From the NCBI GenBank assembly GCA_000531095.1, contig HG799464.1, positions 766,339 to 830,338 on the forward strand: a stretch of 64,000 nucleotides of DNA. Reading direction: 5' to 3'. The position numbers and the translations under genes are program-made. Below the pieces are notes generated by a model, which saw nothing but the letters and a program-made list of their open reading frames with translations, searched no databases and was not told where the DNA came from. The stretch's first letter is position 1. Every line of letters begins with the position of its first letter. The DNA comes from Gemmata massiliana. Lineage in GTDB: Bacteria > Planctomycetota > Planctomycetia > Gemmatales > Gemmataceae. Positions 17,247 to 31,648 of this stretch are shown here, one piece after another.

Positions 17247-20200
17247 ATGGCACTGCTCCTGCGCCCGCCGGAAGAGCGCGAATCGCTCCCGGACCGCCTC
17301 GCCGAACTCGGGCGCACGCGGAAACGGGTCGCGCTCGCCGCGGGCGCGCTCGGGTTCATCGGGACCGTCGTCGGGATCGCGGCCCTCTCGGGCCTGCTCG
17401 ACGCGGCCGTTCACCTCTCCCCCTTCGTTCGCACACTCGCGCTTGTTACCCTCTTGGCGGCGGGGGGAATCGTTTGGGTGCGCGGGATCAGCCGGGCACA
17501 ACGCTACCGGACCGATGCCCTCACGGTCGCACTCGAACTCGAAGACCAGTTTCCTTCGCTCAACGACGCGCTCGCGTCGGCGGTCTCGTTCCTGGAGCCC
17601 CGCGGCGAGGACGCGTCCGACGAACTTCCACCTGCGATACCGGGCGTTTCCAATCGACTCACCGCGTCCGCGGTTCGAGTCGCGGAGCGCCGGGCCGGGC
17701 GCTTGCCGCTCGATTACATCGTCCCGACCGGCCGGTGCTGGTGGAACGCCTGGGCGTGCGGCGCGGCGCTCGCCGTCGCGCTGCCACTCGCATTATTCGA
17801 TACCGACCGCGCCGCGGTCGCGTTCGCGCGCCTCGCGGACCCGTTCGGCGCGCACCCCTGGCCGACCAAAACGCGGATCGAGTTCCTCGCACCGAAAGAG
17901 TTCCCGGTTCGCATCCCGAAGGGCGAAGCGTTCGAGCTCCGGTTCGCCGTGCGAGGCGAACTCGTGGGGCCGGCGACCGTCTCCGTGCGCGTGAAGGACG
18001 GCGGCGAGTTCGAGGACCCGTTCCCGCTCGCGCGCAACAACGACCCGCAAGTGCCCGGCGCCGCAGTCGTCACGGCCCGGTTCGATCCGTCGCGCGTTTC
18101 CAGCACGTTCGAGGTTCAGGTGACCTCGAACGACGCGGTAACCGACTGGCAAACGGTCACCGTAGTGCCCCCGCCGCGCCTGGTACCACTCGACGGGCGC
18201 CCCTCACCACAGTTCCACGTTTCCCCGCCCGCGTACACGCGCCTGCCCGCGGTCGAACTGCCGGCCGGGGCAACGGCGATCGAGATCCCGACCGGAACCG
18301 CGGTTCATTTCCGGGCGGCGACCGATGTCAAGCTCTCGGGCGCGGTCCTCACGTTCGCGGGGGACAAAACGGCCGTCACGAACGCGGTCCCGTTCGCGCA
18401 CCTCGGACAGTTCGATCCGATCGCGGCTATCGGCGCGCAGGCTCTCGCCAACGAGATGGCCGCCGACATTCCACTCACCGTTTCCGCAGACGGGATGCGG
18501 TTCTCCGCCACGTTCGTTCCGCTGCTGTCCGGTCCCTACGCGCTCAAACTGACCGACGACACGGGGTTGACCGGTACGCGGGTAATCAAGATCGACCTCA
18601 CACCGGACCCGGTTCCCAAAGTCACGCTCAACCAGCCCGTGACGGGGCGCGACCCGTCCTACCTCACGCTCGCGGCCTCGGTGCTCGTCAACGCCCTCGC
18701 GGAAGACCCGCTATACGGCGTGCGCGGCGCGTACCTCGAATACCGGGTCGGCCGCGACGGACCGGTGCGTTCGATCCCACTCGGCGCGGCCGGGAACCAG
18801 CCCATCATGGCCCTCGCGGGCGCGGCGGGCGGTTCGGCCGTGGTACTATCTCCGCCCGCAGCAAGCCTGGAAGCGTTCGCGCGCGTACCGATTGCCGCGT
18901 TTCTCCGCGACGACGGGGCGCCCGTGCGCGAGGGCGATCTGATTGTGCTCCGGGCCGCGGCCGGCGACTGGGACGACGTCGCGGTACTCAAGGGGCGCGG
19001 GCGCAGTATCGGCGAGGTCGAAATCCGCATCGCCGCGCCGGACGCGATTGATGCGTGGCTCCAGCGGGAACTGGCGACGATCCGCCCGGAACTCGTTCGC
19101 ATCCGGGAACAACAGCGCGACGCGAAGCAAAAAACGATCGAGGTGCTCCCGCTGCCGGGCGGCACGCTCGCGCCGGCCGACCGCGACCGGCTCGTCGGTG
19201 CGGACCTGGGCCAGCGCCAGGTCACGGGTAAGATTGCCGACCCCGCTCAGGGGTTGCGCGCGAAAGCGGACCTGCTCCGCGAAACGGTTCGCGCGAACGG
19301 GTTGCCGAAGTCGAACACGACCGACCGCGTGGAGATCGTCGCGACCGAACTCGGGCGCACCGCCGACCGCGACTTGGGCGCCGCGCAACAGAACTTAGCC
19401 GACGCGCTCCGGCTCGCCGGGCAGCTCCCCAAACCGGGCCAGGAAAAGGAACTGACGGACTACCTGCGCAAAGCCGGGCGGAGCCAGAAAAACATTGAGG
19501 ACACCGCGACCTCACTGCTCGACCTGCTCGCACTGTGGGGCGGGGCCGGCGAGATCCGGAGCGAGGCGCGCGTGCAGAAGGACATGATCCTGCGCCAGAT
19601 CGTGGGCAACGAGCACCTCAAGGAGCGCGTCAAAGAGGGCAAGCAGAACCCCGCCGGCGACGAGCAGCGCGAACTCGATCGCGCCGCGCTGCGGGCCGAC
19701 CAGTCCGCGGACCAGGCGCGCGAGTTGATCGGGCGCGCGGCGAACCTCGCGGCCGAAAAAGACAAGCAGGCGGGCGACCTCCGTTCCCAGGCCGCGCTCA
19801 AGGAAAAAGAAGCGGCCGAACTGAAGCGCCAGGCGGCCGCCACCGAGAACCCGGTCGAGCGGTCCTCGCTCGGCGCACAAGCCGACGGGGTCGCGGCGAG
19901 CACCGTCGACATGAAGGCCGCGGCGGACAAGGCCGAGGCCGAAGCCAAGGCGCTCCGTAAGGGGATCGAGGCGACCGGTGGTCAGGGGTTGGCCGACGGG
20001 CTCCGCAGCGCCGCCGATTTGCTCCGCAAAAACAAGCAAAGTGGCGCCGAGACCGCCCTGCGGTCCGCGGGCGGGCGGCTCGACGCGCTCGCAGAGGCGC
20101 TCGCGGAAAAGGAAGTGGACGCGATCCCCGAACTCGCCAAGCCGAAGGTCCAGCGCCGCGCCGCCGACCAACTGGACGCGCTCGCCGGGAACGTGGACAG

Positions 20201-26923: not shown

Positions 26924-27717
26924 GCGACTCTTTCACCCCGCGCGAAACCTGGCACTTCGACACCGAGCTCATCGGGCGGCGCGTACTGGTGTACGACTCC
27001 GTCGACAGCACCCTTTCGCTCGGTGCGGCCCTCGCCGCATCAGAAGAAGACACGGACGGGCTGGTACTGATCGCCGACCACCAGAGCGCCGGGCGCGGGC
27101 AGTACGGGCGCACGTGGACGAGCCGCCCCGGAAGTTCACTGCTGATGTCGGTCATTGTGCGCCCGCCCACCGAATTGCGGCGCCCGGTCATCTTGACCGC
27201 GTGGGTCGCGGTCGCGATCGCGGACGCGGTCAAGACCCTCACGGGCGCGCAAGCCCGCCTCAAGTGGCCCAACGATCTGCTCGTTACCGAGAAGAAAATC
27301 TGTGGCATCCTCATCGAACAGAGCAGTAGCGCGGGCGCGCTGACTACTATCGCCGGGACCGGTTTGAACCTCACCCAAACGGCCGAAGAATTCGCCCAAG
27401 CGAACTTGCCCTCGGCAACATCTCTAGGAATCATCTCGGGGGGAGCCATCGACACCCGCGCCGCTGCCGGCGTGGTGATTCGCAAACTCGACCGCGAATA
27501 CTCCCGCCTCTGTGCCGGCGAGAGCAGTGCGGTTGAAACGGAGTGGAAGCGCCGGACCGGGTTACTCGGCCGGCAGGTCGTGATCGAACATTTGGGAGGC
27601 GCAAGTACGACCGGTCGGTTGCGCGACATGAGCTTCGGCGGTCTAGAACTGGAAGACCCGGCCGGATTCGTGAGCGTGGTGACGCCAGAAAGCGTGGCAC
27701 ACGTTCGCGCCGTTTGA
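26920..27717 (+). CDS. birA: Biotin--[acetyl-CoA-carboxylase] ligase
   Basis: The protein is 265 aa, GTG start overlapping the nadC stop (GTGA). It activates biotin and attaches it to carboxylase subunits. Motifs: YDSVDSTLSL, ADHQSAGRGQYGRTWTSRPGSSLLMSV (biotinyl-AMP loop GRGQxGRxW), LKWPNDLLVTEKKICGILIE, IAGTGLNL and the small SH3-like C-terminal domain (GLLGRQVVIEH). It lacks the N-terminal DNA-binding domain of the E. coli repressor, so it is ligase-only. Confidence 0.95.
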   Translation: MSDSFTPRETWHFDTELIGRRVLVYDSVDSTLSLGAALAASEEDTDGLVLIADHQSAGRGQYGRTWTSRPGSSLLMSVIVRPPTELRRPVILTAWVAVAIADAVKTLTGAQARLKWPNDLLVTEKKICGILIEQSSSAGALTTIAGTGLNLTQTAEEFAQANLPSATSLGIISGGAIDTRAAAGVVIRKLDREYSRLCAGESSAVETEWKRRTGLLGRQVVIEHLGGASTTGRLRDMSFGGLELEDPAGFVSVVTPESVAHVRAV

Positions 27718-27860
27718 CCGCGTGCGCGAGATGCGCCCCGACGCGGACTGTAAGAGGCCAGACCGATACCTGTATGCCCTCAACACCCGGCTCGATCCTG
27801 CCGATTCGGGTATACTGCAGACCTCGCTGAACCCGCCCGCCAACCGGCTCCGAGTGTCCG

Positions 27861-29144
27861 ATGCCGACGGTCCCCCTCGACACCCCCGCCGATCAACTGC
27901 GATCCGCTCAGCTCGCGGCCGTGCGCCGGCTCCTCGCGGCGGTAATACCTGGGAACCCGTTCTACGCCCGCAAATTCGCGGGGCGCGACCCGCGCGAAAT
28001 CGACTCGATGGAGGCGTTCGCGCGGCTCCCGTTCACCACCAAAGCCGAACTCACAGCGAACCAAGCCGAACACCCGCCCTACGGCTCAAATTTAACGTTC
28101 CCGATCGAGCGCTACACCCGGTTCCACCAGACCTCCGGCACCACTACCGGGCGCCCGCTCCACTGGCTCGACACACTGGAGTCGTGGGAGTGGCTCATCG
28201 GGTGCTGGCACACGAACTTCGCACTGTTCGGGCTGACGCAAAAAGACCGACTGTTCTTCCCGTTCTCGTTCGGGCCGTTTCTCGGATTCTGGAGCGCGTT
28301 CGAGGCCGCATCGCGTGCCGGGTTCCTGACGATGCCCGGCGGTGGGATGACCAGCACAGGCCGGCTCCGGTTCCTGCTCGAACACCACTGCACCGTTCTC
28401 TTTGCCACTCCCACTTACGCCCTGCACCTGGCCGAACTCGCAGCGAAAGAGGGAGTTGATCTGGCAAACAGCGCGGTGCGCGCGATCGTGGTCGCGGGTG
28501 AACCGGGCGGGAACATCCCGGCGACACGGCAGCGCCTGGAAGCGGTTTGGGGCGCTCGCGTTTTCGACCACTACGGCATGACCGAAATGGGTCCAACCGC
28601 GGTGGAAGCGGCCGGTCGGCCGGGCGAGATGTACCTCTTAGAATGCGACTACCTCGCGGAAGTCGTAAACTCGCGAACGGGGCAGCCCGTCGCCGAAGGC
28701 GAAAGCGGCGAACTGGTGCTGACGAACCTCGGGCGCGTGGGGAGCCCGCTCATCCGGTACCGGACCGGCGACATGGTACGAGTGGCCACTTCGCCCGACC
28801 CGACGGGGCGCTCGTGGCGCCGGCTCGATGGGGGCATTTTGGGGCGTGCAGACGACATGCTCCACGTGCGCGGGAACAACTTGTACCCGAGCGCGATCGA
28901 GGCCATCGTCCGCCGGTTCCCCGCGGTCGCCGAGTACCGGATTCACGTGGATCACACGAACCCGCTCGCGGACCTGCGATTAGAAGTGGAACCCGCGACC
29001 GGCGACGGGAACAGCCTCGCGGACAACATCGGCCGGGCGATCCGCGATGAGTTGTTCTTCCGCGTGGACGTGACCGCTGCTGCGCCGGGCAGCCTACCTC
29101 GATTCGAGATGAAAGCCGCCCGTATCGTCCGGACCGCGCGGTGA
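27861..29144 (+). CDS. Phenylacetate-CoA-ligase-like adenylate-forming enzyme
   Basis: The protein is 427 aa, ATG start. It belongs to the ANL superfamily, PaaK branch: FHQTSGTTTGRPLHW (P-loop), VAGEPGGNIPATR, FDHYGMTEMGPT (adenylate-contacting YGxTE), IRYRTGDMVRVAT and a C-terminal domain with LHVRGNNLYPSAIEAIV. It should activate a carboxylic acid as the acyl-adenylate and then the CoA thioester. The substrate is unknown. The next genes on this strand encode a second ligase, an aldehyde-dehydrogenase-fold enzyme and an alcohol dehydrogenase, suggesting it feeds a reduction pathway. Confidence 0.85.
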   Translation: MPTVPLDTPADQLRSAQLAAVRRLLAAVIPGNPFYARKFAGRDPREIDSMEAFARLPFTTKAELTANQAEHPPYGSNLTFPIERYTRFHQTSGTTTGRPLHWLDTLESWEWLIGCWHTNFALFGLTQKDRLFFPFSFGPFLGFWSAFEAASRAGFLTMPGGGMTSTGRLRFLLEHHCTVLFATPTYALHLAELAAKEGVDLANSAVRAIVVAGEPGGNIPATRQRLEAVWGARVFDHYGMTEMGPTAVEAAGRPGEMYLLECDYLAEVVNSRTGQPVAEGESGELVLTNLGRVGSPLIRYRTGDMVRVATSPDPTGRSWRRLDGGILGRADDMLHVRGNNLYPSAIEAIVRRFPAVAEYRIHVDHTNPLADLRLEVEPATGDGNSLADNIGRAIRDELFFRVDVTAAAPGSLPRFEMKAARIVRTAR

Positions 29145-29168
29145 CAGAATCGCGCACTCGGGAACTTC

Positions 29169-29206
29169 CGTAATCCTTCGTATAGCATACATTATACGAA
29201 GTTACG
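29169..29206. other. loxP core with 454 Titanium linker flanks (probable sequencing-linker remnant)
   Basis: Positions 29176-29204 match 29 consecutive bases of P1 loxP: spacer GCATACAT at 29184-29191 flanked by TTCGTATA and TATACGAAGTTA. The flanks CGTA-AT on the left and CG on the right follow the 42-base 454 Titanium paired-end linker (CGTA, loxP, ACGA) with small indels. A 29-base match cannot be chance. No Cre-like recombinase is seen in the window. Confidence 0.8.
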
Positions 29207-29295
29207 TGCTCAGCGCGAACAAGACGAGTAATTTGATTCTTGTAGTACGGGATTAACTACCCGTATTGAGGGACAAACCCTTTCCGGGAGGTGAC

Positions 29296-30480
29296 GTGAA
29301 AGACACGCCAGGTAAGCCGGCCCCTGTAACCGGCACCACGCTCGAAGAGCGCATCAAGAACGCGCGGACCGCGCTCGACGCGCACGTTCGCGAGATCGTG
29401 CGGTGGCACTTCGACCCCGCCACCGGTACCCCGTTCTGGCTCGAAAAGGCGAAGACGTTCAACTTCAACCCGCTCACCGACGTGAACGGGTGGGACGACG
29501 TGAAGAAGTTCCCGATCTTCGAGGACGACTGGCTCCGCGGCGGCCCGGTGCGCCGGTGGGTGCCGAAGGGCCTCGCGGACCGCGGCGTGTACGTCTTCGA
29601 GACCGGCGGCACGACCGGGCTGCCGAAGTCGCGCATCGTGATCGACGACTTCAAGATCGACTACGAGATGATGTCCGACACGCTGCCGGACCAGTTCTTC
29701 CCGCGCGGGGCCAACTGGCTCATGCTCGGGCCGAGCGGTCCCCGGCGCCTCCGGCTCGCGATCGAGCACCTCGCGCAGTACCGTGGGGGCATCTGCTTCG
29801 CGATCGATCTCGACCCGCGTTACGTCGTGAAGTGCCTGAAGGAGCGCAAGATCGCGGAGGCGCAAGCCTACAAGGACCACTGCATCGACCAGGCGCTCAC
29901 GATCCTGGCCGGCGGGCACGACATCAAGTGCATGTTCACCACGCCGAAGCTGCTCGCGGCCCTTGACGAAGCGCTCCGCGGCGGGAAGCTCGAAGACAAA
30001 TACCGGTCGCTCGGCAAGCCGGTCCCGCGGGGTGGTATCCGATCGATCAAGCAAGCGGGTCTCACCGGCATCTTCTCGGGCGGTACCGAGTTCACGCCAC
30101 AATTTACGCGCGAAGCCTACGAGGAGATGCTCGACAACGGCGACGTGTACATGACGCCGACCTACGGCAACACGCTGATGGGCCTCGCGTGCTCGAAGCC
30201 GATCGGCCCGGAAGACGGGTTCAAGATCAGCTACTACGCCCCGCAACCGCGGGCCGTGATCGAGGTCGTGAACCCGAAGAACTACGACGAAGTGGTGCCC
30301 TACGGCGGGACCGGGCGCGTGCTCCTGAGCACGTTCACGAAGGAGTTCTTCGTACCACGGTTTCCGGAACGCGACGAGGGCGAACGGGAGAAGCCGTTCG
30401 AGAAGTACCCGTGGGACGGCGTGAGCGGCGTTCGGCCGTTCGCGGAACTCGCCGGCGGGACCGTTGTCGGCGTGTATTGA
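29296..30480 (+). CDS. Second adenylate-forming, acyl-ligase-like enzyme
   Basis: The protein is 394 aa from the GTG at 29296, preceded by GGGAGG; a TTG at 29266 is the alternative start. VYVFETGGTTGLPKSRIV is an ANL P-loop, followed by IFSGGTEFTPQF, YMTPTYGNTLMGL and GGTGRVLLSTFTKEFFVPRF. It is shorter than PaaK and lacks an obvious C-terminal lid domain, resembling acyl-protein-synthetase/LuxE-type or phenazine-cluster ligases. It may transfer an acyl group to a protein or directly to the neighbouring reductase; that is inference. The linker-like sequence lies in its upstream region. Confidence 0.75.
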   Translation: MKDTPGKPAPVTGTTLEERIKNARTALDAHVREIVRWHFDPATGTPFWLEKAKTFNFNPLTDVNGWDDVKKFPIFEDDWLRGGPVRRWVPKGLADRGVYVFETGGTTGLPKSRIVIDDFKIDYEMMSDTLPDQFFPRGANWLMLGPSGPRRLRLAIEHLAQYRGGICFAIDLDPRYVVKCLKERKIAEAQAYKDHCIDQALTILAGGHDIKCMFTTPKLLAALDEALRGGKLEDKYRSLGKPVPRGGIRSIKQAGLTGIFSGGTEFTPQFTREAYEEMLDNGDVYMTPTYGNTLMGLACSKPIGPEDGFKISYYAPQPRAVIEVVNPKNYDEVVPYGGTGRVLLSTFTKEFFVPRFPERDEGEREKPFEKYPWDGVSGVRPFAELAGGTVVGVY

Positions 30481-30498
30481 TCGGTAACTGCGACCTGC

Positions 30499-30540
30499 AA
30501 AAGACACGCGCCCCGCCTGTTGGCGGGGCGCGTGTCTTTT
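30499..30540. terminator. Bidirectional intrinsic terminator
   Basis: AAAAGACACGCG then CCCCGCC pairs across the loop TGTT with GGCGGGG and CGCGTGTCTTTT. The 19-bp perfect stem is flanked by A-run and T-run, so it works on both strands. It separates the plus-strand ligase (ends 30480) from the minus-strand lipoprotein (ends 30544). Confidence 0.95.
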
Positions 30541-30543
30541 AAC

Positions 30544-30714
30544 TTAGCTCCGCTTCGGCGGCGCGGGTGGAGGCGGAACTGGCGCCGCTTTGTTGGGCGC
30601 AGCCCCCTTCCCCGGCGCGGGAGGAACTTCTTGAGGCGGCTGTGTGCCACCCCCGCAACCGGTCGCGAGGGCGAGAACCAGTCCGCTCAGAACCACGGTG
30701 AGAATTCGAGGCAT
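30544..30714 (-). CDS. Small proline-rich lipoprotein
   Basis: The protein is 56 aa from the ATG at 30714. MPRILTVVLSGLVLALATGCGGG is a lipoprotein signal with lipobox LATGC. The mature part is 30-odd residues rich in Pro, Ala, Gly and Lys (QPPQEVPPAPGKGAAPNK). It lies 55 bp downstream of the DUF1559 gene on the same strand, the usual place for such lipoproteins in planctomycetes. It may be a cell-wall spacer; no partner is proven. Confidence 0.75.
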   Translation of the reverse strand: MPRILTVVLSGLVLALATGCGGGTQPPQEVPPAPGKGAAPNKAAPVPPPPAPPKRS

Positions 30715-30769
30715 TGCTGATCTCCTGTCGGCTCTGGCCCCCAAAGAGAGTGAGGGCAACGAGTATGGC

Positions 30770-31648
30770 TCAGTCCACGTTGGTCACAACGACCCCGTCG
30801 TTCATCCCCGACAGGAACACGAACGCGCTCGAATCCATCCCGCGGCGTAGCGAGCGAACGGAGCCGTCGCAGAACGCGAACAGCACGCCGCCCGTGTGCC
30901 GCCCCCCAAACTGATACCACTCGCTCGTTTCGGTCAATCCCCACGCGGTCGGAAGCCCACCGGTGCCCATCCACGTGCTCACGTAGTCACGGGTGCCGGG
31001 GTTGTGACCACCGAGGTACTCGCCGAAGCCGATGGTGTTGGAAGTGCCGTCGGAAATCGCGGTAATTGTCGTCTTGGAGTTCGTGAAGAACGGGCCGGTC
31101 AGCGACGTGTTCGCCGCACCCAGGTACCCGGCGCTCGGAGCGTAGTTAGTCTTCCCGAGGGTCGGGTAGGCAGTCGGCGACCACGAACCAGCACTCGGCG
31201 AGGGACCGTTAACGTAAATGTAAGCCCAAACACCAGTTGAAGCAGTTACGTTGTCCGACCCGTCCGACGGGCACTGGAACATCTTGACCCGGTAGTTCGC
31301 GGCCACCCACGAGTTCCCAGAATACCAAACACCGGTTCCGGGGATCGCGAGCTTTGCCGGTTCAATCAGTTGGTAAATGTTGTCCTGTTCCACGAACGGC
31401 AGCAGGTAGCCGAAGGTGCCGATCGCACTCACGCTGTTGTTGCCGGGCGGCAGGTAGCCACACGAACTTTCGTAGTTGGCCGCAGCTAACCCGAGTTGCT
31501 TCATGTTGTTGCTGCACGACATCCGGGCCGCGGCTTCGCGCACTTTTTGCACGGCGGGAAGCAGCAAGCCAATGAGGATCGCGATGATCGCGATCACTAC
31601 CAACAGTTCAATGAGGGTAAAACCTCTGCGGAAAGGAGTTGGGCGCAT
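30770..31648 (-). CDS. DUF1559 pseudopilin-like secreted protein
   Basis: The protein is 292 aa from the ATG at 31648. [21 protein letters not shown] is a type IV pilin-like prepilin cleavage and methylation motif, followed by [28 protein letters not shown] and [11 protein letters not shown], the DUF1559 signature. The C-terminus ends with the family motif [22 protein letters not shown]. These proteins are greatly expanded in planctomycetes and are processed by a prepilin peptidase and type II-secretion-like machinery. It is divergent from the aldehyde-dehydrogenase gene across 389 bp. Confidence 0.95.

Follow-up and report, generated by a model that had tools for sequence, protein, structure and literature searches.

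A loxP-like stretch in the Gemmata massiliana genome is almost certainly an untrimmed 454 mate-pair linker

The site lies in a stretch of 64,000 nucleotides from Gemmata massiliana, referred to in full as the window, between two open reading frames, neither of which is interrupted. The features around it, in window coordinates, are as follows.

27861..29144, plus strand: AMP-binding ligase-like open reading frame, upstream of the site, which stops before the linker
29169..29206, plus strand: apparent residue of the CGTA-loxP-ACGA linker used for 454 Titanium paired ends, its outer arms altered
29171..29204, plus strand: 34 bases replacing 31 unrelated bases of the relative G008 (lengths counted by hand from alignments)
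29176..29204, plus strand: stretch of 29 bases identical to loxP
29266..30480, plus strand: open reading frame, weakly AMP-binding-like (its Pfam match is under the gathering score), downstream of the site, which starts after the linker at a listed TTG

A preliminary description of the window had reported 29 consecutive loxP bases at 29176-29204 and held that chance could not explain them. We confirmed the exact stretch and agree about chance: the 22-base loxP core at 29180-29201 is present a single time in the window and absent from all 100 shuffles, and the 29-mer would be expected about 6e-15 times in 64 kb on both strands (for independent bases and an assumed GC content of 64%). The complete 34-base loxP was not found in the window with up to three mismatches because the outer arms are altered, and the 10-mer ACTTCGTATA occurs nowhere in the window except at the site itself. 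Of the linker flanks that had been claimed, CGTAAT does stand ahead of the loxP stretch. The right end is cut at TTA, and the CG that follows the core (29205-29206) is also native in G008 (CGTGCTC) and therefore does not require a linker origin; indeed, the first two and the last two bases of the remnant are common to the native G008 sequence. The window copy thus has the linker's CGTA before it on the left side only, without ACGA after it, and does not have the two intact 13-base arms and 8-base spacer of a functional P1-type lox site.

Two known sequences resemble this site. The Roche 454 Titanium circularisation adaptor, whose 42 bases are printed in PMC5199103, has the same sequence and spacer orientation as the copies found across the genome; relative to it, the window copy reads CGTAAT and then CC where the adaptor has AAC, and it stops at TTA, with native sequence following. 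That paper states that fragments were circularised using Cre, per the Roche 454 protocol, and in PMC3253782, too, the Roche 454 kit is said to rely on Cre-LoxP and to mark the junction by its linker. The loxP of phage P1 (X03453.1) is identical to the window copy over 29 bases. However, in P1 the 34-base site is preceded by CCTA and followed by ATTA, whereas the window copy has the linker's CGTA before it, and instead of the P1 flanks CCTAATAACTTC...TTATATTA many copies in this genome carry the adaptor flanks CGTA...ACGA.

Twelve phage records, mainly P1-like or enterobacterial ones, contain the identical 29-base core, which could favour a single lox scar derived from engineering or from P1, the alternative that had been raised for this site. 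The left flank argues against such a scar, as does the presence of 40 copies on 12 contigs rather than one or two. A close Cre is also lacking in the genome (best match, 30% identity), and we saw no marker gene among the listed open reading frames at 27000-31500, which were inspected by eye, with Pfam run on the two neighbours. The flanks, the copy number and the absence of a close Cre rule this alternative out, and we give it next to no probability.

The genome itself (22 contigs, 9,269,192 bases) contains the exact 22-base core 40 times, 26 in forward and 14 in reverse orientation, spread over 12 contigs. The reversed control pattern of this core had no matches in the genome, and among the 59 genomes searched this one was the sole carrier of the exact core, with none in the 58 relatives. 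Searches with half-linkers of 15 bases per arm matched at 38 places for the left arm and 36 for the right, with no matches for the controls; merging these with the cores gave 63 distinct places, 23 of which lack an exact core. Genome-wide, loxP with CGTA before it and ACGA after it does occur, and some of the other copies retain the full 34-base loxP. By hand tally, 23 of the 40 exact cores have a complete left arm CGTAATAACTTC, 21 a complete right arm TTATACGA and 9 both, with one or both outer arms incomplete at the other 31. An N-run lies within 200 bases of 16 of the 40 copies; the 37 wide loci together contain 27 N-runs in 444,208 bases. At 11 of the copies (L173, L174, L176, L186, L188 and others; hand tally), CATAACTTC, usually GCATAACTTC, replaces the left CGTAATAACTTC, and similar arm variants occur in other genomes too.

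Forty exact cores in one genome would also be compatible with a natural lox system, in which a resident Cre-like recombinase acts on lox sites scattered through the lineage. Querying the genome with P1 Cre returned three tyrosine recombinases at 27-30% identity (E down to 3e-16) and a fourth match that was not significant. All three and P1 Cre alike were assigned to Phage_integrase, and Pfam therefore cannot separate them from Cre. L209, L210 and L211 are paralogous tyrosine recombinases that are remotely Cre-like; the other two share 72% identity with the first. The close P1 Cre homologue that would go with a functional lox site was not found in the genome, in which the best match reached 30% identity, and we found nothing to link the three recombinases with the linker copies. 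Homologues of the recombinases (E <= 1e-20) are present in 2 of 18 same-genus relatives, G002 and G014, yet these two, like all the other relatives, lack the site. The flanks of the copies are those of the adaptor and not of P1, one copy (L020) breaks the frame of a protein-kinase gene that is open in a relative, and some copies adjoin N-runs and displaced duplicates. On these four grounds a natural lox system is ruled out: we consider it extremely unlikely, and its specific form, in which one planctomycete has a natural array of many lox copies on which one of its three Cre-like recombinases acts, vanishingly so. The preliminary description had named a Cre-like recombinase gene plus a second lox site in the same genome as grounds for giving up an artefact. 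Both are present, but the artefact reading stands because the other copies are linker-like and the recombinases are 27-30% identical to Cre.

An artefact of circularised mate pairs makes a prediction about neighbouring sequence, namely that downstream DNA ends up on the left of the linker and upstream DNA on its right. We fetched approximately 6 kb on each side of the 40 copies (37 loci, one shortened by a contig end), masked the linker and searched for direct duplicates of the 300 bases next to it. Seven of the 40 copies (L170, L172, L187, L193, L194, L200 and L206) had a duplicate of 35-137 bases, displaced by 1.5-4.0 kb, that abutted the linker. All seven lay in the predicted outward direction, in keeping with a mate-pair distance of about 3 kb. 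The L187 duplicate is just 35 bases long, and the one at L194 is ambiguous, as tandem repeats occur naturally at that locus. The remaining 33 copies, the window copy included, had no abutting displaced duplicate.

When duplicates were no longer required to abut the linker, those in the wrong direction appeared at the left flank of 1 and the right flank of 2 of the 40 copies, and 149 controls gave 6 and 7 at the left flank and 2 and 6 at the right (to the right and to the left, respectively). Duplicates are therefore common at controls under this looser rule, and a duplicate is informative only if it abuts the linker. When the search was restricted to abutting duplicates, with N-rich flanks dropped and L206 thereby lost, it found 6 of 40 in the predicted and 0 of 40 in the opposite direction; among 517 random positions from the same loci the counts were 1 and 2 (Fisher p 6e-7 for the predicted direction). 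With exact seeds the counts were 6 of 40 and 0 of 40 versus 8 and 16 of 699; this variant missed L172 and L206 and gained a weak match of 17 bases at L189. At L009/L170, the 93 bases to the left of the linker correspond, at 98-99% identity, to sequence lying 2.0 kb farther downstream in the relatives G008 and G012, while the outer flanks match in place.

Displaced sequence left beside other copies by an untrimmed mate-pair read, as at L009/L170, raises the possibility that the window too is chimeric at 29.2 kb, with the linker joining genuinely distant sequences; a join of two sequences there had been proposed, together with a comparison of the junction in relatives as a check. In that comparison, window positions 28500-29900 were matched in one piece both by G008 (one contig, 94%) and by G012 (three contigs, 86% over 1.4 kb), and G008 was collinear with the window across the site over 4.4 kb at 93%. 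As two relatives run collinearly straight through, no distant sequences are joined at the window site. The proposed join has to be abandoned: the two collinear relatives rule out a chimeric window, which we regard as extremely improbable, and the neighbourhood of the window copy is not chimeric. In a repeat search of 25.0-33.5 kb, direct repeats were at most 84% identical and no displaced copy lay beside the site. What the comparison revealed is a swap of native bases for linker. The G008 flanks GGGAACTTCCG and CGTGCTC are 31 bases apart, and in the window 34 linker bases lie between them (hand count); the linker has taken the place of native intergenic sequence there, 34 bases for 31.

Six of the 40 copies, at five loci, were compared with relatives in this way. 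Between matching flanks, the window has 47 bases where G008 has 44, of which the differing part is 34 versus 31. L020 (42 bases versus 35 in G008) and L027 (44 versus 36) show the same type of replacement as the window, with 7-8 bases gained, and at L009 the linker plus mate sequence amounts to 133 bases versus 131 in G008. These lengths point to linker reads taking over native columns in register, by outvoting or filling them. The double site L033, with copies on the minus strand in a tandem-repeat locus, has 206 bases versus 116 in G008 and does not fit in-register replacement. At L020 (1989-2025; contig C3), the linker overwrites a stretch of a kinase gene through the aspartate and phenylalanine of what we take to be its DFG motif. 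The frame of this gene is shifted, whereas its G008 counterpart is open and has a Pfam protein-kinase domain (E 5e-31); the L020 kinase gene is a false pseudogene.

Taken together, the adaptor flanks, the 40 copies and 63 places, the N-runs at 16 of 40 copies, the displaced mate sequence at 7 of 40 and a fitting sequencing method support the reading already favoured in the preliminary description, and we consider it almost certain that the loxP stretch is an untrimmed 454 Titanium mate-pair linker, an assembly artefact and not a recombination site. The published method fits this reading. According to PMC4672568, the G. massiliana genome, project PRJEB621, was sequenced from 454 Titanium 3-kb paired-end and XL+ shotgun libraries at 22.4x and assembled with Newbler 2.8 (90% identity, 40-base overlap) into 22 scaffolds of 9,249,437 bp, 19,755 fewer than the 9,269,192 bases analysed here; the words linker and loxP are absent from the main text of that paper. 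The most likely explanation for the copies is that reads with an unrecognised linker went untrimmed into the assembly, where read coverage was presumably thin, and that the consensus took the linker, sometimes plus a piece of the mate, instead of the true bases. With its 42 bases the linker is slightly longer than the required overlap of 40, and untrimmed linkers may have been accepted for this reason.

The linker site is unimportant as biology but matters for data hygiene. A public genome carries at least 63 apparent linker remnants, at least one of which breaks a gene, that of a protein kinase, and short false duplicates accompany some of them. When genomes are mined for lox sites, CGTA-loxP-ACGA should be filtered out.

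The same linker is found in other public records. A scan of genome contigs for the loxP core returned at least 96 stretches containing at least 123 sites, 87 of the 123 with exact CGTAATAA...TTATACGA flanks, and at least 16 organism names appeared among the 80 matches listed. Carriers among these matches include Agrobacterium genomosp. 13, Kitasatospora cheerisanensis and Clostridium sartagoforme. Two Escherichia contigs differ in having CCTGATAA or CCTAATAA before the core and TTATCTTA after it, as a P1-type element would. Two small scaffolds of Litoribacter populi (L070 and L100) each carry four linker copies with exact linker flanks, evenly spaced by 129 and 123 bases; these arrays are perhaps a concatenation artefact. 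In the record of Lactococcus phage Q33 (JX564242.1, about 17544-17584; L208:1501-1541), GTAATAACTTCG...TTATACGA lies at the 3' edge of the annotated portal gene. The relative 50902 matches this region at 98.3%, with 20 of the 22 differing columns around the linker, and the Q33 record probably carries the same linker artefact.
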